From a virus, in IMG/VR virus record IMGVR_UViG_3300032291_000229, positions 1-21,024 of that record: DNA of 21,024 nucleotides; one strand, written 5' to 3'. The notes beneath the pieces were generated by a model that was not told where the DNA came from, made no database searches, and saw only the letters and a program-made list of their open reading frames with translations. The position numbers and the translations under genes are program-made. Positions 9,369 through 20,448 of the stretch are shown here, in pieces. The stretch's first letter is position 1. Every line of letters begins with the position of its first letter.

Positions 9369-10966
9369 AGTGTCTTACCGCCTTTAACGAAAACGTCTAC
9401 TTTCTGCAAAGAGACGGAGTTGTTGTCAATATCTGTTTCAAAGCCAAGCTGAAGTGTTTTACCTGTGCCACCAGCGTTGATGTTATTATTAAAGATAATA
9501 ATTCCACCAGAATATTCACCAATTCCGTATTCACCAATACCGTATTCAGCAATCGCCGATGGTGAAATAACAGTAGTGGCTGACTGATATGCTTTCTTAA
9601 AATCAAAGTCCCATTTAACCGAGATGTCTTGATTCTGAGCACCAATTAACAACATTTCAATCTTCTTGAGAATCTTTGATGTTGTAGGTTGTTGGAAGTC
9701 AAAATAACTTGAATAGTAAGACATCCGATACGGAGCCGTGTTGTCGGTATATCCGTTGTATAATCCAATGTATCCGTTTTTACCTAATAAGAACTCACGA
9801 TTAAATGTAGTGCAAAAAGCAGTTGGTGTAATTGTGTCCCAAGTCGTTGCTCTTGCTGAACCGTCTGGCAGTAGTGTTCTTGAATCAAAACAATATACCG
9901 TGTCTACATCTGAAAACGATAAGACATAAAATGCTTCTTGTGCTGAGTATCCAGACTTAATGGACTTCATGTCTGTTGTCAACTGCAATGTGCTTAACAG
10001 TTCATCTCGGACATTCTTAGAGATGTCACGCATAGGCATCGACTTCTCTTGAATTGTTCTGGAGAAGCTACGCACACCTGTAGACGACAGAAACACAACA
10101 TCTGTACCTGTGGGCTGAATTGAATCTCTTGCAATGCAGCCAATACCAGTAACTAAATCAGCTAAAGCCAGCGATGACGGGTCTTGCGCTCCGCTGTAAA
10201 CAACCGTATGGTTTTCACAGAAAATGATAAGAAACCCATTATGCGAAGCTAACCCAATAATCGGGTCTCCGTCTGATACCACTTCAGAAATGTTTAACGC
10301 TCCTGCAGTACCTGTCTGAAAGTTTAAAGGGTCTAACAAATCACTGAAATACACAGTTTGTTTATCGTTGACAATATCTGCTACCCAGATTCGTCCATAA
10401 GCAGATAAAGCACAATTTGGTAAAAAGGTGCTAGAAGTATGCGATACAGGAACAGCAGGTAATGTAGCTACATCGGCTAAGACCTTAAACACATAATTGC
10501 TTGTTACGCTAGAGTAAGAGAACAACAGTGGCTTATGTCCAGCTTGTACTAAAACAGCTCTGCCACGAGCATTGGTAGCATCTGGTAGCGATGCAACTTG
10601 CCAATGACTGTCTGTTATCGTGTATGTTGCGTCTGCTGTGTCTCCGCTGTTGCGTACATTCTTTTTAACTAACGCAGTGCCGTTAGAAACAAACAACTTT
10701 GCATTTCCAGCAGCAATTAACTTATCGTCGCTTGCAGCAGGAGACAACACTTCAAAAATCATGTCAACCGATGCAGTGCTTAAATCTGCATTAGACGGTA
10801 AATAAGGTGTCCATCCTTTACGAGCACCGATACGACCAAACTTGTCAATAACGCAGTTATTCGCTTCTAAAGCAAAACCAGCCTCTAGCGAAGTAGGAGC
10901 ATCCTGTAGGTTTAAACCAGCAAACCCCGGTGCTGCAATAGACGAAGTTACAAGTTGTTTGCTCAA
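9365..10966 (-). CDS. Tail hub / stabilisation protein (tail tubular B or P22 gp10-like)
   Basis: The 533-residue protein is dominated by beta-strand-like segments with repeated aromatic/Asp turns (RIWVADI, QTVYFSD, FLIIFCENHTVVYSGA, FYVLSFSDVDTVYCFD). These suggest a propeller-like body, as in tail hub or stabilisation proteins that close the portal in short-tailed phages. The N-terminal NLQDAPTSLEAGFALEANNC segment, describing an arm before the body, is common in this group. An EYGIGEYGIGEYSGG insertion at about 470-485 comes from a 15-base tandem repeat. Translation starts at TTG, overlapping the TGA of the upstream adaptor gene (TTGA). No ATG near the start fits the conserved N-terminus, so coupling is likely. 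The fold and P22 gp10 analogy are inferred. Confidence 0.68.
   Translation of the reverse strand: MSKQLVTSSIAAPGFAGLNLQDAPTSLEAGFALEANNCVIDKFGRIGARKGWTPYLPSNADLSTASVDMIFEVLSPAASDDKLIAAGNAKLFVSNGTALVKKNVRNSGDTADATYTITDSHWQVASLPDATNARGRAVLVQAGHKPLLFSYSSVTSNYVFKVLADVATLPAVPVSHTSSTFLPNCALSAYGRIWVADIVNDKQTVYFSDLLDPLNFQTGTAGALNISEVVSDGDPIIGLASHNGFLIIFCENHTVVYSGAQDPSSLALADLVTGIGCIARDSIQPTGTDVVFLSSTGVRSFSRTIQEKSMPMRDISKNVRDELLSTLQLTTDMKSIKSGYSAQEAFYVLSFSDVDTVYCFDSRTLLPDGSARATTWDTITPTAFCTTFNREFLLGKNGYIGLYNGYTDNTAPYRMSYYSSYFDFQQPTTSKILKKIEMLLIGAQNQDISVKWDFDFKKAYQSATTVISPSAIAEYGIGEYGIGEYSGGIIIFNNNINAGGTGKTLQLGFETDIDNNSVSLQKVDVFVKGGKTL
9513..9557 (-). repeat. 15-base tandem repeat inside the hub gene
   Basis: Three consecutive 15-base units (9513-9527, 9528-9542, 9543-9557) encode the peptide series EYGIG-EYGIG with a degenerate third copy (AIAEY). 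On the plus strand the units read TATTCACCAATTCCG, TATTCACCAATACCG and TATTCAGCAATCGCC. The repeat keeps the frame, so gain or loss of a unit would change a loop by five residues without breaking the protein. Confidence 0.8.
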
Positions 10967-11619
10967 TTCGCTACCCAGTTGGTATCTTCAATGTAACGAT
11001 TAGACTCAAGCGAGATATAGTCAGCAAGTAAGTTACGGGCTAAGGCATAGGCTTCAGAGGACTGTAAACCGCCATCTTCACCACGCTCTACAATCGCACG
11101 AGCAAAGGCATTAAGAACAACAACATCACCCGGTACTTTGATTAAATCAGTGTCTGCAACAAGTGGGTCTTGTGGCAACATGACGTTAAACCGTAATGTA
11201 TACGCTGCGTCAGGAATAGGGAAGATGTCGACTAATGTATCGCCATTAGCGTCTTGACCGTTAAAGTTAAAGTAACGAGGTGCTCCACGAGTGGGACTGT
11301 CCTGCATAAACTGCTGCGTCATCCACGATGTAGGTGCAACATCCATAAAGAAGTTCTGCGAATCGTTGATTGCGTCAATTACTCTAAACCGTACACCAGA
11401 GCCTTCTAAGACATAACTAAAAATGTTTGCAGTCGTAGTTGCTGTCAGTGTATCAGACAAAGCGTTCCAGCCGTAAGCGGCTTCTACCGACGATTTAGCA
11501 TCATTCACTAATTCGCCAATCATTTTGCTGTAGGCGTTCTCGTTTACGGTAGAAACTTCTGTTTCCCGTAGTCTGCGAAGTACGCTATTAACAGCTTGTA
11601 GATAAGTCGTAGTTGCCAT
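10963..11619 (-). CDS. Tail tubular protein A / head-tail adaptor-like protein
   Basis: The 218-residue protein begins with a helical bundle (TYLQAVNSVLRRLRETEV, then KMIGELVNDAKSSVEAAYGWNAL). A beta-rich middle follows (VRFRVIDAI, RYFNFNGQDANGDTLVDIFPIPDAAYTLRFNVMLPQ), then C-terminal helices (NAFARAIVERGEDGG, AYALARNLLADYI). This architecture and the DxFPxPD-xxYTLRF block are characteristic of the tail tubular A/T7 gp11-type proteins that sit below the portal. It directly precedes the hub-like gene, the same order as gp11-gp12 in T7. The gene starts a putative transcription unit: a sigma70-like promoter lies in the 46-base gap upstream. The start ATG has AGAGGA nearby. Confidence 0.75.
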   Translation of the reverse strand: MATTTYLQAVNSVLRRLRETEVSTVNENAYSKMIGELVNDAKSSVEAAYGWNALSDTLTATTTANIFSYVLEGSGVRFRVIDAINDSQNFFMDVAPTSWMTQQFMQDSPTRGAPRYFNFNGQDANGDTLVDIFPIPDAAYTLRFNVMLPQDPLVADTDLIKVPGDVVVLNAFARAIVERGEDGGLQSSEAYALARNLLADYISLESNRYIEDTNWVAN

Positions 11620-11665: not shown

Positions 11666-11914
11666 TTAGTTGCAATCCCATTTTTTTAATGCTAATGCCT
11701 TGCGTGTTGGTCTGCCCTTTTCGTCCTTCATTGGACCAGCGACACCGCCCATCCGAGCACAAAAACTCTTACGTCGTGCAGCCGCTTTAGGCGACTTTGC
11801 AGCCTCTTTAGCTGACACAGGAGGCTTTAGCTTAGAACCAGTCTTTTTATTGTAGTAGTCTCTACCTTTTTGGTTAAGACCGCCTTCGGGGTTCTGAAAC
11901 GCTTTCTTAGGCAT
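11666..11914 (-). CDS. Small basic conserved phage protein, DUF6321-like
   Basis: The 82-residue protein is strongly basic (Lys/Arg-rich), with a recognisable core: NPEGGLNQKGRDYYNKKTGS at 8-27, a Lys/Ala linker, then SFCARMGGVAGPMKDEKGRP at 50-69 and a KALALKKWDC end. I recall this block arrangement from the DUF6321 family of phages and large viruses, function unknown. Two cysteines (C52, C81) are the only ones. Its ATG shares one base with the stop of the 47-residue gene before it (TAATG). It is the third of three consecutive tiny Lys-rich genes. Binding to DNA or to the virion interior is plausible from charge but unproven. Confidence 0.75.
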   Translation of the reverse strand: MPKKAFQNPEGGLNQKGRDYYNKKTGSKLKPPVSAKEAAKSPKAAARRKSFCARMGGVAGPMKDEKGRPTRKALALKKWDCN

Positions 11915-12057
11915 TATTTCTTCTTCTTAGCTGTCTTAGCAGCATCTTTAAAGTCTTTAGCCGAAGGAGCGCCTTTAGAGCCAACCTTACGCATCTTCTC
12001 ACCTGAACCAGCCTTGATACGGTTTCTCTTGGCTGCGATATTGGCATACAAGCCCAT
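11914..12057 (-). CDS. Tiny Lys-rich conserved phage protein (47 aa)
   Basis: The minus-strand frame encodes MGLYANIAAKRNRIKAGSGE, then KMRKVGSKGAPSAKDFKDAA and a KTAKKKK end: 47 residues with about a third basic. I recall close relatives of this MGLYANI-x-AKRxRIxAGSGEKMRKPG pattern in aquatic podophages, annotated only as hypothetical. Its ATG begins two bases after the TAA of the 53-residue gene, and its own TAA overlaps the ATG of the 82-residue gene, so translation is probably coupled through all three. It has no membrane segment, cysteine or recognisable domain. It is too short for typical gene-calling cut-offs; the conserved context supports it as real. Confidence 0.7.
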   Translation of the reverse strand: MGLYANIAAKRNRIKAGSGEKMRKVGSKGAPSAKDFKDAAKTAKKKK

Positions 12058-12058
12058 T

Positions 12059-12220
12059 TTAGTAGCCACGTTTAGCGCCCATCTTCTTAGCTGGTTTCTT
12101 AGACATACCTGCTTTGCTCATGGCAATCGCAATGGCTTGTTTCTGAGGCTTTCCAGACTTCATCTCAGTACGAATGTTAGAGGAGATAGTCTTTTGTGAT
12201 TTACCTGATTTTAATGGCAT
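12059..12220 (-). CDS. Tiny Lys-rich conserved phage protein, DUF6496-like (53 aa)
   Basis: The frame encodes [20 protein letters not shown], then [20 protein letters not shown] and a [13 protein letters not shown] tail. The G-K-P-x-K-Q-A-x-A-I-A core is a pattern I know from widespread small phage proteins (DUF6496-like), function unknown. Two ATGs are adjacent (12223-12221 and 12220-12218). I chose the second because AGGAG, which overlaps the stop of the upstream 117-residue gene (TAAGGAG), is five bases from it but only two from the first. The central [12 protein letters not shown] would form a short amphipathic helix between basic arms. It is the first of three tiny basic genes in a row. 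Confidence 0.7.
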
Positions 12221-12229
12221 CATTGCTCC

Positions 12230-12583
12230 TTAGTATTGGTTATATTGAACGGCAGAAGTTGGTTCTAGTTCAAAGGTACAAATAACGGATGACGTAGCGC
12301 CAGACTCAACCTCGACCCTGACTTCATCGCCTTCTTCTAGTGCAATATATGCACCGCCATCAAACCGCAAGAATGTCTTAGCAGCTAATGGGTAGGCACT
12401 GACGATAGACACTTCAGTATTCGTGCTTTTGTCATACCACCACGCAGTAAAGTTTTTTGCAGAGGAGGTATTATTAATAGCCCACAGTAAAGTCCATTTT
12501 GCTGTTTGTCTTGCAGGAACAACAAACAATGTTGTCTTAGTTGCTGCGACAAGATTCTTACCTACGGATACTGGTCTTATCAT
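12230..12583 (-). CDS. Conserved small beta-rich virion-module protein (117 aa)
   Basis: The 117 residues alternate beta-like segments (KTTLFVVPARQTAKWTLLWA, FTAWWYDKS, VSIVSAYPLAAKTFLRF, AYIALEEGDEVRVEVE, SVICTFELEP). They suggest a compact beta-sandwich like those of small head decoration or tail-tip proteins. There is no signal peptide or cysteine pair. The GDEVRVEVESG turn resembles carbohydrate- or capsid-binding jelly-roll modules, but this is only an impression. It sits between the coiled-coil membrane protein and the tiny basic cluster, and its stop codon overlaps the ribosome-binding site of the next gene. A structural role is inferred; I do not recognise a named family. Confidence 0.6.
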   Translation of the reverse strand: MIRPVSVGKNLVAATKTTLFVVPARQTAKWTLLWAINNTSSAKNFTAWWYDKSTNTEVSIVSAYPLAAKTFLRFDGGAYIALEEGDEVRVEVESGATSSVICTFELEPTSAVQYNQY

Positions 12584-14664: not shown

Positions 14665-15912
14665 TTAGAATGAGCCTCCGTCGATTGTTCCAGTTATTTT
14701 TGACCCTGCTAATGAAGTAATCCATGCCGGGTCAGCATAGCTACCAGTTGTGACAACACCATTAGTGACTGTTCCTGCATTGCCACTAATAGAGCCTGTA
14801 ATCGTTGAATTAAACGTCTTTGTACCAGCAACGGTTTGGTCGCCAGTTAGTTTAACAACAGCGTTATCCGCAGCATAACCCGCTAAAGCATGATTACCCC
14901 AACCAAACGCTGTATCTGCTTTCGTGCCTTGCGCTGCGGTAGCATAGTCGGTAGCTGCTGTTGTGGCTGCAGTTCCTAAACCTAAGTTCGTTCTTGCTGT
15001 ACTTGCTGATGCTAAATCCGATAAGTTGTTTGCCTTTAGCAATGAGCTAGAAAGCGTAGCTGTTGCAGCGGCTGCAGAGGCAGCGGCGGATGTTGCTGAG
15101 TTTGCAGCATTGGTTTCAGACGTTGCCGCAGCAGTAGCTGAGTTCGCAGCATTGGTAGCGGATGTAGCTGCGCTTGTGGCGGAGTTGCTTGCAGCAGTGG
15201 CGCTAGTGGCTGCCTCACCTGCTTTAGTAGTCGCTATTCCTGCTTGCGTTGTTGCTGTTGACGCTGAATTTGTTGCGCTCGTTGCGCTGGTAGCTGCATT
15301 GCTTGCTGAAGTGCTTGCGCTAGAGGCTGAAGAAGTGGCTGAAGCAGCACTTGCTGTAGCGGATGTAGCGGAGCTTGCTGCAGCGGTAGCAGAATTGGCA
15401 GCGTTTGTTGCACTTGTTGAAGCGTTGCTTGCTGAAGTAGATGCTGCACTTGCTGAGTTACTTGCATTGGTTGCCTGTGTAGTCGCTGTAGACGCTGAAG
15501 AAGACGCACTAGAGGCGCTAGACGCAGCGTTTGAGGCTGAGGTACTAGCGTTACTTGCGGACGTGCTTGCAGCGCTTGCAGAGGCTGCTGCGGCTGTTTC
15601 TGAGTCAGCAGCATTTTCTTCAGATACTAAGGCAGCGGCTGCGGAGGCAGCGGCGGCAGTAGCGTCACCAACAATACTAGCTGCAGAAGCGGCTGCAGCA
15701 GTAGCAGACGATGTTGCGCTAGAAGCAGAGTTCGCAGCGTTCGTAGCCGATGTTGCAGCAGCAGAAGCAGAACTAGCGGCAGCATTAGCCGACGCTTGTG
15801 ATTGATTTTTAGAGACTTCAGCAGCTTGTGCAGCAGCGGTAGCTAAAGCAGCTTGGCTGTTTGCATCGTTTGTGGCATCACCAGCACCGCCCGGACCTCG
15901 GTAGAAACTCAA
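14665..15912 (-). CDS. Tail fibre with long Ala/Ser coiled-coil stalk (415 aa)
   Basis: Residues about 20-288 are almost pure Ala/Ser/Thr/Asn in heptad-like steps (SATNAANSAT pattern), a trimeric coiled-coil stalk. The end has ANNLSDLASASTARTNLGLG at 294-313, TAFGWGNHALAGYA, then KLTGDQTVAGTKTF and a beta-rich tip ending TIDGGSF. These are standard phage fibre C-terminal elements. It starts at TTG (15912-15910): an AGGAG lies six bases upstream and no ATG fits the MSFYRGPGG N-terminus, so TTG is well supported. It follows the coat-gene terminator and an unusual hairpin leader. The final DGG codons provide the Shine-Dalgarno sequence for the next fibre gene. The biased codons make long false frames on both strands. 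Confidence 0.8.
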   Translation of the reverse strand: MSFYRGPGGAGDATNDANSQAALATAAAQAAEVSKNQSQASANAAASSASAAATSATNAANSASSATSSATAAAASAASIVGDATAAAASAAAALVSEENAADSETAAAASASAASTSASNASTSASNAASSASSASSSASTATTQATNASNSASAASTSASNASTSATNAANSATAAASSATSATASAASATSSASSASTSASNAATSATSATNSASTATTQAGIATTKAGEAATSATAASNSATSAATSATNAANSATAAATSETNAANSATSAAASAAAATATLSSSLLKANNLSDLASASTARTNLGLGTAATTAATDYATAAQGTKADTAFGWGNHALAGYAADNAVVKLTGDQTVAGTKTFNSTITGSISGNAGTVTNGVVTTGSYADPAWITSLAGSKITGTIDGGSF

Positions 15913-16002: not shown

Positions 16003-16959
16003 TTAGGCGTTTACAGCCAATACGAAACCAGCTTCTGGACGTACAACTTTAGTGCCGAACAATGTGTCAGCAGTGTAAAGTGTCGACAAGTAATCTTGCT
16101 TGTACTGAGTCTGTGAACGAACACCTAACTGCTCTGCCAATACCATTGTGTCGGTATGGAACAAGAGTGCGGCTTTGATTGCATCACCAGCGGTGTTGTC
16201 ACCAGCGGTCTCGATAACAGGCATATTGCTCGACACATAAATGTCGATTCCATACAACTTACCGATTTGACCATTGTTTACGCCACGACCATCAACGAAG
16301 TCAGAGCTGTTGTAACGGTCAATACCCATGATTGCATTGCGGAGTGAAGGAGGAATCGCAAACTTACGACCATCCATTGGTACGTCAGCGTCGTCCATCA
16401 ACTGGATGAGCTTACGGAAGCCAGCGTCAGTGAACAAGTCAGAGGTGGTTACAGTGTCGAGAGCATAAGCTGTCAAACCTGTCGAAGCGTCGATGAAGTA
16501 CGCATTGCTGTGTACCCAATCAGAAGCGTCGCCGTCGCCGAAAGACTTACCCAAAGCGATGAGGTCGTCATCAACTTGTTTAGCCAAAGCGTAACCTGCG
16601 TCTTCCGTGTAGAAAGAACGGAGCGATGCCAAAGCCTGAACTTCAACGATGTCCTCGATGAAACGTGAGTACTCGAAGTGGCGGTTGATTAGAACCTGTA
16701 CTTCTGTCTCGGTATCAGCTTGGATGGTGACGGCAGTGTTTGCAGCCTTGAGGGTTGCAGAACCACGAGTTGGCTTAGGAATGTGCAGCGTGTCGCCTTT
16801 TTTGCCTTTGAAAGACATTTTGCGAACGAGGTTTGCCAATACTAAGTTTTTCTGATAGGCAGCGATGACTTCATCAGACCAAATTTCTGGTACGAATGTT
16901 GCTGCGTTTGTGCTGTTGACGATAGATGAACTACCGCCGGGGTATGCTACTTTTGCCAT
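16003..16959 (-). CDS. Major capsid protein
   Basis: The 318-residue protein has the size and order expected of the coat protein, directly after scaffold. The N-terminal section (NAATFVPEIWSDEVIAAYQK at 18-37, then VLANLVRKMSFKGKKGDTLHIP) is a hallmark of HK97-fold coats in aquatic podophages: an N-terminal arm helix, then the strand entering the E-loop. The RHFEYSRFIEDIVEVQ segment is the spine helix region. The C-terminus (LGVRSQTQYKQDYLSTLYTA, then DTLFGTKVVRPEAGFVLAV) forms the P-domain strands found at the ends of such coats. GGAAA precedes the ATG, and a strong terminator follows. Coat assignment is firm; exact lineage is not determined here. Confidence 0.9.
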   Translation of the reverse strand: MAKVAYPGGSSSIVNSTNAATFVPEIWSDEVIAAYQKNLVLANLVRKMSFKGKKGDTLHIPKPTRGSATLKAANTAVTIQADTETEVQVLINRHFEYSRFIEDIVEVQALASLRSFYTEDAGYALAKQVDDDLIALGKSFGDGDASDWVHSNAYFIDASTGLTAYALDTVTTSDLFTDAGFRKLIQLMDDADVPMDGRKFAIPPSLRNAIMGIDRYNSSDFVDGRGVNNGQIGKLYGIDIYVSSNMPVIETAGDNTAGDAIKAALLFHTDTMVLAEQLGVRSQTQYKQDYLSTLYTADTLFGTKVVRPEAGFVLAVNA

Positions 16960-16990: not shown

Positions 16991-17818
16991 TTACTTAACT
17001 CTCCCTGTTGCATATGCGTCCATAATTTCATCGGACAACTGCATATACCTATCAGGGTCGGTTATTCTCAGTTTAATAAGGTCTGCTCTACGATATACTT
17101 TTCTGCTGGTTTCGCCACCACTACCAACATCCACTGTAGCTGCCCTTAATGCTGCATCTTGAGCTTTGCTATCGACTGCTTCTGGTCTGCTGCTCTGAAC
17201 TTGCTGTTTGATTTGTTTGAGTTCCTTGTAGGTGCTCAACAACTCATCAGCGGATTCAAAGTCATACTGGGAATCAGCTTTAGCAAACAAGTTTAATCGG
17301 ATTTGAGAAGATTTAACCCAATCTTGGAAACCAGCATCTTGTGCGATGGTTGCAAAATCAGGATGTTTAGCCGACAGTTGTTGTGCCGTCTTCATCTTCT
17401 TCATTTCTAATGCTGCTTGTCTTGCTTCAATTACTGCAGGGTGCTTCTCAACTTGTCTGTTAACTGCTTTAGCGGGGTCTACAAAAAAGTCTTCTTCGAG
17501 CGATTCTTCAATCGGCGTATTTACTTTAGCGTTTGACTCGAGTTGTTGTTTTAACAGTTGGTCTGCAAGACTTCGTACTTCGTGAACCTCATTTGCTTGG
17601 CGACCTATGAGCTTTTCAGCTTCTTGGTGCATCCTTGCAATCTCAATAGCAGACTTACCACGATACTTCTCTGGTAATTCTTCTACTGGTTCTTTGACAC
17701 CAACCGCTTCAGTAGTATCTGCCGATGTAGAATCAGGTACTGGGGTTGTAATATCTTGTACTACTTCTTGCTCACTACTATTAAACAGTTCTTGTTCTTC
17801 AATAAAGTTTGCTGCCAT
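16991..17818 (-). CDS. Capsid scaffolding protein
   Basis: The 275-residue protein is acidic at the N-terminus, highly helical and Gln/Glu/Ala-rich, with PEKYRGKSAIEIARMHQEAE at 49-68 as the start of a coiled-coil core. The C-terminus SRKVYRRADLIKLRITDPDR at 238-257, followed by a helix ending AYATGRVK, is the basic coat-binding helical hook characteristic of scaffolds in aquatic and T7/P22-type podophages. It is encoded immediately before the coat gene, the normal order. An AGGAG lies seven bases before the ATG. It should guide procapsid assembly and leave before or during packaging. No protease motif is fused to it. Confidence 0.85.
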   Translation of the reverse strand: MAANFIEEQELFNSSEQEVVQDITTPVPDSTSADTTEAVGVKEPVEELPEKYRGKSAIEIARMHQEAEKLIGRQANEVHEVRSLADQLLKQQLESNAKVNTPIEESLEEDFFVDPAKAVNRQVEKHPAVIEARQAALEMKKMKTAQQLSAKHPDFATIAQDAGFQDWVKSSQIRLNLFAKADSQYDFESADELLSTYKELKQIKQQVQSSRPEAVDSKAQDAALRAATVDVGSGGETSRKVYRRADLIKLRITDPDRYMQLSDEIMDAYATGRVK

Positions 17819-18459: not shown

Positions 18460-20448
18460 TTACTTTTTCATCTGTAGTTCAACAATTTTTCCACGATTAA
18501 CAATGTCTTGCTCTTTTAAGGCAAGTTCACCTACTTTTAATCGTTTCTCAAAGTCGCTGAGTTGTTTTTCAGGCTTATTTACCTTAGCTAATGTCTCTGC
18601 TGCCTTTAATTGCATCTCTTGCGGAGCCATTTGTGCCTCAATCATGGTCTTTTGAGCCTCTGCAGCATCTTTTTGTGCTCTAGCTTGGTATGATGCGGTC
18701 TGTGCTTGACTCTGTTGCATCTGTAACTGGGCTACCATCTGCTGCATTTCAGCCTGTTGTGGGTCTGGTTGGCTCATTTGGGCTAATGCTTGCTCCATTT
18801 CAGCCCTGTTAGACAGGCTAGAGTTCGCAATAATGCCCTTGAGGATGACAGGCAATACAGGAGTATTAGGTCCAAGCGTCTGCAGCAAGCCAATAAGCTG
18901 TTGCTGTTCGTATTCACGAGCCATGATACCCAATGTAGCGGTAGGCATAAACTTCATGTCGACAGAAGGATAACGCTCAGGGTCAAATTGCATATAACGG
19001 AACGCAACCTTCTTAATCAATGGAATCATAAAGTCTTCTTGGAAGTTGGTTAACGTCCGTTTGTACTTCTTAATGATTCCAGCCATCGCCATCGACATAC
19101 CGGCACCAGAAGCATCTCTGGAAGCCTGAGACACAACACCTTGGCTGTCTAAAGTGCCAGTTGCCATGAGCAGCATACGCTCAAACTCTTTAGAGGTGTT
19201 AAAGCTCTCAGGGCTGGTTTGACCGAATTTGAATGGGAATAGTATTTCAGCAGGATTACCGTTGGTAAGGATTGCTTTACCGGGTTTGACTTCAAACTTA
19301 GAGCCACGAGGAAGGCGAGTAGCGTCCATTGCAATCATTGGAGCAGTGGTCAATGCCAAGCTGTCTAAATGGCTACGGAGCTGTGCATCAATCGCTTTTT
19401 GCATATTGTATGCTTTTTCGACTGTACCACGACCCCAGAAACGTCCGGGAACCGTATCGTCTTGGTAAGCGACTACAGGACGGTCTTTCATCATGTAAGG
19501 CGACTTCTCTGCCTTGAGTAGAATACCGTCATTACCGATGACCACAATAGCCTCTACAAGGTCGCTGTAAGCGTCTGCAGTGCTTGACTCAGGGAACAGG
19601 TTAACCACTTCTTCTTCGTCGTTCTCAAGCTGTTCTAGGTACTCTCTAGGGACTAATCCGTAATAGGTTAGAACCTTAACCTTGTCATCTTGATACTGGA
19701 CTACTTCTTGGGTTACTTCTAAGTCGTCGTCGTTACCAGCAGGACCGATGTCTACCTTGCGATAGATACCCTTTTCCATGTTCTCAATCACTTTGTGGAT
19801 AGAGACAAACTTCTCAATCGCTACACCCATTGCATCGTCAATCGAGGTAGCGTTGGGGTCAATTAAGAAGTTCTTTGGGTTTACAGGAACGGTAGGAACG
19901 CAGAAGTATTCTTTCTCGCTCACACCATACGCAGCTTGCGTACTGCCCGGAACAGGCATTGTGGTAGGAATATACTCTGTTTTCTTGGTAACAATAATCT
20001 CACCGATACCAGTACCGTAAATCTCTGCCATTAGTTCAATCTGGTCTACGGACTTACGAATCTTCTCTTTTTCTAAGTCTTCACGCAACAGAGTGCGGAT
20101 AGCTTCCACATCCATTGGATTGTTGTTGTAATCCTTTACATCGTCTTTGATGTCGAAGAACTCTCCGTTACCGAAGATAGCTTCCATAATCTCAGCGTGG
20201 CGAGTCTCAACTGCTTGCTGCGTTGCGGGACTGATTAAGCGACTGCGCTCGGACTCACGAGTACGGTCTTCAGAAGCCCAAACACCACGGAAGATACGCT
20301 CGTATTCTTTCCAGTCTTCTAAGTAGTTCTCGTCACGATGGTCACGCCAGCGGTCACAGTGTTGTACAACGAACGCTGCTAACTCTTTGTCAGCTTCAGA
20401 AGGTTGTTCCCACTGCACGCCTTCGTTATTATCTTTCATTTCAGCCAT
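18460..20448 (-). CDS. Portal protein
   Basis: The 662-residue protein would form the dodecameric ring through which DNA enters and leaves the head. The core contains SRLISPATQQAVETRHAEIM (about 89-108), the acidic wing regions, and VVAYQDDTVPGRFWGRGTVE followed by KAYNMQKAIDAQLRSHLDSL. These are portal-typical segments in podophages. Residues about 549-662 are Gln/Ala/Met-rich and helical, a long C-terminal barrel or crown like that of P22 portal. The gene lies between the terminase (with one small gene in between) and the scaffold-capsid unit. The stop precedes a clear intergenic promoter. No ATPase or nuclease motifs, as expected. Confidence 0.88.
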   Translation of the reverse strand: MAEMKDNNEGVQWEQPSEADKELAAFVVQHCDRWRDHRDENYLEDWKEYERIFRGVWASEDRTRESERSRLISPATQQAVETRHAEIMEAIFGNGEFFDIKDDVKDYNNNPMDVEAIRTLLREDLEKEKIRKSVDQIELMAEIYGTGIGEIIVTKKTEYIPTTMPVPGSTQAAYGVSEKEYFCVPTVPVNPKNFLIDPNATSIDDAMGVAIEKFVSIHKVIENMEKGIYRKVDIGPAGNDDDLEVTQEVVQYQDDKVKVLTYYGLVPREYLEQLENDEEEVVNLFPESSTADAYSDLVEAIVVIGNDGILLKAEKSPYMMKDRPVVAYQDDTVPGRFWGRGTVEKAYNMQKAIDAQLRSHLDSLALTTAPMIAMDATRLPRGSKFEVKPGKAILTNGNPAEILFPFKFGQTSPESFNTSKEFERMLLMATGTLDSQGVVSQASRDASGAGMSMAMAGIIKKYKRTLTNFQEDFMIPLIKKVAFRYMQFDPERYPSVDMKFMPTATLGIMAREYEQQQLIGLLQTLGPNTPVLPVILKGIIANSSLSNRAEMEQALAQMSQPDPQQAEMQQMVAQLQMQQSQAQTASYQARAQKDAAEAQKTMIEAQMAPQEMQLKAAETLAKVNKPEKQLSDFEKRLKVGELALKEQDIVNRGKIVELQMKK

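Follow-up and report, generated by a model that had tools for sequence, protein, structure and literature searches.

The trio and its setting in the virion module

The window analysed here is the whole of a virus record of 21,024 bases, a 21-kb fragment. Its virion module lies on the minus strand and runs from a portal protein (18460..20448; phrog_1216) through a probable scaffold (16991..17818; a weak match to phrog_19777, 2.6e-4), the major head protein (16003..16959; phrog_267), two tail-fibre-like genes and further small genes to three consecutive small open reading frames at 11666-12220, which we term A, B and C, with a tail protein (10963..11619; phrog_10775) directly downstream. The original prediction, which had singled out this trio and placed it in the virion module, agrees with this gene order; likewise, the 53 residues of A (12059..12220) and the 82 of C (11666..11914; coordinates include the stop codon) are read from the sequence as predicted, as is the coupling of B to C through a TAATG junction. 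A probable ribosome-binding site of A, AAGGAG, is found at 12226..12231 on the same strand. Between C and the tail gene we also observed a sigma-70-like promoter (window positions 11658-11630, minus strand; TTGACA-17-TACACT, 10/12), a consensus match in a region with 5 such sites against 2.8 expected, which raises the possibility that the tail genes have separate expression. Further along the module, a 280-aa open frame on the plus strand (14963-15805), opposite an Ala/Ser-rich tail-fibre-like gene, is probably an artefact of composition.

The predicted start of B had to be revised. It had been placed at an ATG at 12057, giving 47 residues and a TAA-A-ATG junction with A. In many relatives, the string GTG-GCT-ACT-AA precedes a conserved Gly-Leu-Tyr, and in most of these the position of the ATG is occupied by a Pro codon, so that the GTG string is kept where the ATG is not (e.g., loci L009, L018, L019, and L023). 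Hence, B most likely begins at the GTG at 12069 and comprises 51 aa (11914..12069, minus strand, stop codon included). Its overlap with A is then 11 nt, and the working A/B junction is very probably not TAA-A-ATG. Other relatives begin B with an ATG two residues before the Gly; thus, the start position varies within the B family.

All three proteins belong to recognizable families. C matches Pfam DUF6321 (PF19846) at 2.4e-28 (99 bits against a cut-off of 28.5; positions 2-72 of the 72-residue profile), in line with the 'DUF6321-like' label originally given, A matches phrog_2423 at 3.1e-18 (profile positions 1-47 of 52), and B matches phrog_16028 at 2.5e-24 (positions 5-49 of 50). The accompanying label 'DUF6496-like' does not hold for A, which returned nothing from Pfam, DUF6496 (PF20106) included, at E<=1; a DUF6496 match was seen in just 1 of 41 aligned members of the A family. 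The ratios of non-synonymous to synonymous change (dN/dS) between the window and its relatives are low: 0.056 for A in the single usable comparison, 0.06-0.18 for B in the 14 comparisons listed of 67, and 0.03-0.17 for C in 13 of 17 comparisons (14 listed, one of which is without a value as dS is saturated). Together with the family matches, these values rule out chance open reading frames and establish A, B, and C as real, conserved genes. Their basic character, part of the original description, is confirmed by net charges at pH 7.5 of about +12 (A), +12 (B), and +15 (C) and pI values of 10.4-11.0; with masses of 5.4-9.0 kDa, they display the 'small, strongly basic' trait of the T4 internal proteins.

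The further claim that the trio lacks a hydrophobic core is contradicted for two of its members, which cannot be regarded as structureless given their helical models. Single-chain AlphaFold2 predictions gave a helical domain for C (mean pLDDT 87.1, pTM 0.67; 30 aligned sequences as input) and a helical hairpin for A (residues 9-21/26-36, mean pLDDT 82.5; 41 aligned sequences). Profile searches of PDB sequences with A, B, and C recovered 0 matches each at E<=1; Foldseek with the C and A models gave none at E<=0.001, and VIA-align with the C model none at Z>=2. With a DUF6321 query taken from ACG-2014f, matches were obtained in 542 of 50,697 phage records, most of them from marine cyanophages, and a scan of 84,980 cellular genomes for close relatives of C yielded 12 loci. 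The names DUF6321 and DUF6496 are absent from the literature searched, a corpus that excludes subscription papers and preprints and in which the name DUF5872 is present.

A cassette of changing order and varied neighbourhoods

To describe the company these genes keep, we used the best 80 IMG/VR loci listed per protein, a sample that favours close relatives of the window. When the resulting 231 loci are chained in 1 kb steps, all three families are present in 87, A+B in 14, A+C in 10, and B+C in 23, with A, B, and C as the single family in 55, 18, and 24, respectively; contig ends shorten some of these loci. Neighbours were counted in those loci that extend for 1.2 kb or more in both directions. 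Within 1 kb of C, A is found in 39/54 loci and B in 36/54; within 1 kb of B, A is found in 29/55 and C in 34/55. These counts far exceed the 0.0 to 0.5 neighbours expected from how densely hits occur at greater distances, and five orders occur (ABC 62, CBA 20, ACB 2, BCA 2, and BAC 2, again among the best 80 loci per protein). Thus, the trio stays together while its internal order changes: the co-occurrence originally expected is observed, and the fixed order expected with it is refuted. In one locus (L129), A and B form a single protein. A also has a wide existence apart from its partners, as B lies within 1 kb of it in 13/56 loci and C in 10/56, against the same expectation of 0.0 to 0.5. 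Independent occurrence of the three genes, which the original prediction had named as the outcome that would speak against it, is therefore half borne out: A is often without B or C, and these two are also found alone.

The larger genes flanking loci with at least two of the families were surveyed, with the nearest plus-strand frame of 150 aa or more within 3.5 kb being taken on either side and near-duplicates removed (one protein may match several families, and 25 families are listed of 166 upstream and 28 downstream). Upstream (n=77), the large terminase phrog_2 is found in 14, along with tail-fibre families; downstream (n=66), the tail protein phrog_10775 is found in 28 and the portal phrog_156 in 12. 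Isolate genomes give a finer picture. HTVC168P has the arrangement scaffold-gp29-B-C-capsid, S-CBP4 has scaffold-x-C-B-...-capsid, with S-RIP2 being similar, P-SCSP1d has capsid-C-B-tail tubular, and in MEP301 C immediately precedes the connector gene. The gp29 of HTVC168P (L001:5745-5852) is a Lys-rich protein of 35 aa that lies directly before B, in the place that A has in the window. In CRP-5, B is part of a cluster of small genes adjoining the phoH and ribonucleotide reductase genes. In PB1 and KBS-S-2A, A adjoins genes with a head-protein annotation; in phiEap-2, it lies between the genes for head morphogenesis and the major capsid protein, and in Bcep43 it is next to the virion structural gene gp03. 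In Acinetobacter phage AP22, it constitutes residues 1-44 of the head maturation protease (gp28), the protease itself being of the DUF2213/phrog_2229 family. A further adjoins tRNAs and the terminase in Cronobacter phage A24 and lies inside a tRNA array in phiCbK (a weak match, 2e-3). The cyanomyovirus version of C, T4-GC 119, is located between gp16 and gp17 in Syn1, P-HM1, and S-SM1; ACG-2014f and S-RIM8 have C in the same position without the T4-GC 119 label, and in P-SSM4 and P-SSM7 it lies near gp61 and nrdA, outside the head block.

Beyond the trio, we observed a further small module, phrog_17747 (L203:1439-1855, L210:3038-3397, and L073:439-1356), that is joined to A at two of these loci and to C at the third, which suggests a larger shuffled set of such modules. 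We had assumed it to be DUF5872; no such Pfam match was obtained for L073, L203, or L210, and the name was dropped. A protein of 212 aa at another locus (L232:14-730) begins with the A module and has a second module, phrog_36547, that contains Cys.

Multi-module proteins, leader-like N-termini, and proteases on the T4-like side

Loci L239-L326, comprising isolate records and contigs fetched with the P-SSM7 protein, constitute the T4-like side of our sample. Their open reading frames have C alone in 62 cases, B fused to C in 25, and B alone in 4, such that C is also present in 25/29 of the frames bearing B; A was not found in these loci. The typical B+C protein consists of a short leader ending in E, followed by B, another E, and C. 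The pattern M-x-[TSDNE]-[FY]-x-[EQD]-[FLIY] fits 16/17 distinct B+C N-termini, against 10/579 of the remaining plus-strand frames with 60 aa or more in these loci and 4/41 of the C-only proteins; ipII and ipIII in the T4 record fit it too. The start was taken mechanically as the first ATG, and as the pattern was composed after examples had been viewed and the sequences are akin, the leader and motif counts are not independent. A capsid-targeting leader ending in L/I-x-E is absent from all three window genes.

Glutamates also mark the module boundaries. In 16/16 distinct contexts an E precedes B, with V/I/L at the P3 position in 14 by script; the remaining two (L282 and L265) have [LIV]-x-E just upstream, as judged by eye, and the strict T4 preference for L/I at P3 is seen in 10/16 as scripted. 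Before C, an E lies within five residues of the conserved Trp in 56/61 distinct contexts and is followed by G/A/S in 49 of these 56; in three of the remaining five, the E is six residues away, which in one case places it upstream of the protein's start Met, and the last two have no nearby E. V/I/L/F/M occupies P3 in 35/56 of these, versus 24/140 at other glutamates, and the strict L/I is found in 17/56. From these features, B and C are probably made as parts of a precursor and released by cleavage in T4-like phages. A related observation is PHM1_163 of P-HM1 (L246:35191-36498; T4-GC 534), annotated as a "possible cytitidyltransferase", in which E|G and E|S border a B module; its gene adjoins that of T4-GC 190.

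The candidate enzyme for such cleavage was sought in 22 records. The T4-type prohead protease (S77) is found in 5/22, namely P-SSM7, Syn1, and the contigs of L271, L272, and L304 (the last hit lying at a contig end), and a match to the T4 major capsid protein gp23 in four: P-SSM7, Syn1, and the contigs of L271 and L272. S77 is thus present in 4/4 of the records with gp23, three of which (P-SSM7, L271, and L272) have the B+C fusion, and in 5/9 of the T4-like-side records overall, where L273, L291, L278, L261, and L304 are without gp23, may be missing that region, and are called T4-like from the kinship of their C proteins. None of the 13 podovirus-size records has S77; S78 and CLP proteases were found in 0/22 records, and a DUF2213 search of the 22 gave no match even in the control records, so that it carries no weight.

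A further, indirect line of evidence comes from virion composition. Sullivan et al. (2010; PMC3037559) report 41 proteins in S-SM1 virions, with gp14, gp21, and T4-GC 190 among them. T4-GC 119, the C protein, is annotated as 'similar to Synechococcus phage S-SM1 protein' in all four records examined (P-SSM4, Syn1, P-HM1, and P-SSM7). In the stretches read from these records, together with a further 49 kb of P-HM1, the same note is carried by gp3, 13, 14, 15, 18, 19, 20, 21, and 23 and T4-GC 190, 425, and 426, and not by gp16, gp17, gp22, or the replication or repair genes. We read it as an indirect mark of virion detection; in the S-SM1 and Syn9 records (Syn9 gp114), the C protein is without a structural label.

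Probable small basic internal head proteins in two proposed formats

Taken together, we favour, with moderate confidence, the interpretation that the trio encodes small basic internal head proteins, which are separate genes in this phage and are probably cleaved from a precursor in T4-like phages. In this podovirus, A, B, and C would be translated directly in mature form from the three coupled genes, built into the procapsid together with the scaffold, and kept among the packaged DNA, possibly to be ejected along with it. In T4-like phages, a precursor containing B and C would enter the head core via its N-terminal targeting leader, whereupon a gp21-type prohead protease would cut it apart. 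A is predicted to be the partner of B and C that is elsewhere joined to a prohead protease. The sequences themselves establish the starting points of this proposal, namely the reality, co-location, and permuted order of the genes, the B+C fusions with leader-like N-termini, the glutamate motifs at module boundaries, the protease in several such genomes, and the fusion of A to a prohead protease; from them we infer that the precursor is cleaved and that the proteins reside inside the podovirus head, bind DNA, and are ejected, and the extension from T4-like phages to this podovirus draws on homology and gene context. The original interpretation is partly supported: its core idea, that these are small basic virion-module proteins with a role inside the head, gains support from the B+C fusions with T4-type leaders and protease-like sites and from A on the AP22 protease. 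Against the internal-head reading stand A beside tRNAs or the terminase (A24 and phiCbK), B of CRP-5 by phoH, and C of P-SSM4 and P-SSM7 by gp61/nrdA, as well as the presence of the leader in just 4/41 C-only proteins and of the strict L/I at P3 in 17/56 contexts before C and 10/16 before B, the two contexts before C with no nearby E, the T4-like-side loci in which A was not found, and the S-SM1 and Syn9 records in which the C protein has no structural label.

Part of this evidence could also be read in terms of transient cofactors of head assembly, which, like T4 gp67/gp68, would work alongside the scaffold or prohead core and leave before DNA filling. The genes adjoin those for the scaffold, capsid, or portal in HTVC168P, S-CBP4, P-SCSP1d, and MEP301, A is fused in AP22 to an enzyme that must enter the prohead, and a passage of PMC2984593 describes cyanomyoviruses as being without gp67 and gp68. 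However, T4-GC 119 bears the note common to virion-detected proteins and the scaffold gp22 does not, and the strong positive charge is better suited to DNA; accordingly, we regard such a role as unlikely. The large terminase among the upstream neighbours (14/77), the portal phrog_156 downstream (12/66), and the fact that several cyanomyoviruses have C between gp16 and gp17 would fit cofactors of DNA packaging that act with the terminase or portal outside the head, but the protease-like sites and the resemblance of the N-termini to leaders argue for a location inside the prohead and the genes elsewhere adjoin capsid and tail genes, making this very improbable.

Rather improbable, too, is that the trio encodes ejected effectors of host takeover or anti-defence, packaged like T4 IPI and with their target in the host cell, a proposal that is compatible with their being internal head proteins. 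IPI, a restriction inhibitor, is delivered in this manner (PMC9026906), and the shuffled module order, the varied partners, and the proximity of the CRP-5 B gene to those for phoH and ribonucleotide reductase would be in keeping with such a function. Yet, the low dN/dS is unlike that of fast-evolving counter-defence genes, and B and C are highly conserved across cyanophages, pelagiphages, and other phages.

More generally, the internal-head interpretation raises the prospect, to which we give about even chances, that small basic modules of the head interior form a widespread toolkit deployed in two formats: cassettes of mature peptides in podoviruses that are without a T4-type prohead protease, which shift in position and order while staying together, and the cleavable, leader-bearing multi-module precursors of T4-like phages. 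Such a toolkit would provide a function for DUF6321 and PHROGs 2423 and 16028. If A, B, and C are internal head proteins, they would show how peptides that a protease matures elsewhere can take the form of separate, ready-made genes where that protease is lacking, and many unassigned genes of common ocean phages would become testable by virion proteomics.

The closest functional precedents are the internal proteins of T4. As reviewed by Black (PMC9026906), these are basic, abundant, and bind DNA at low salt, and have targeting leaders of 10-19 residues that are removed after L/I-X-E; IPI is an anti-restriction protein and IPIII affects head assembly. In the literature searched, again excluding subscription papers and preprints, this review is the only source to combine "capsid targeting sequence" with "cyanophage". 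The trio resembles IPI, IPII, and IPIII in being small and basic, and the B+C proteins of T4-like genomes share with them the type of leader and the [LIV]-x-E before B. In contrast, the window genes are leaderless and separate, several modules are combined per precursor in T4-like phages, and no common sequence family was seen in an unsystematic comparison. T4-GC 119 of marine cyanomyoviruses has the C module in common with the window, the P-SSM7 protein also having a B-like module; its length in the translated records is between 91 and 880 aa and it is often multi-module, whereas C of the window is a stand-alone protein of 82 aa. Similarly, the AP22 head maturation protease has at its N-terminus the same module as A of the window, which is joined there to a DUF2213/phrog_2229 protease and is free here.
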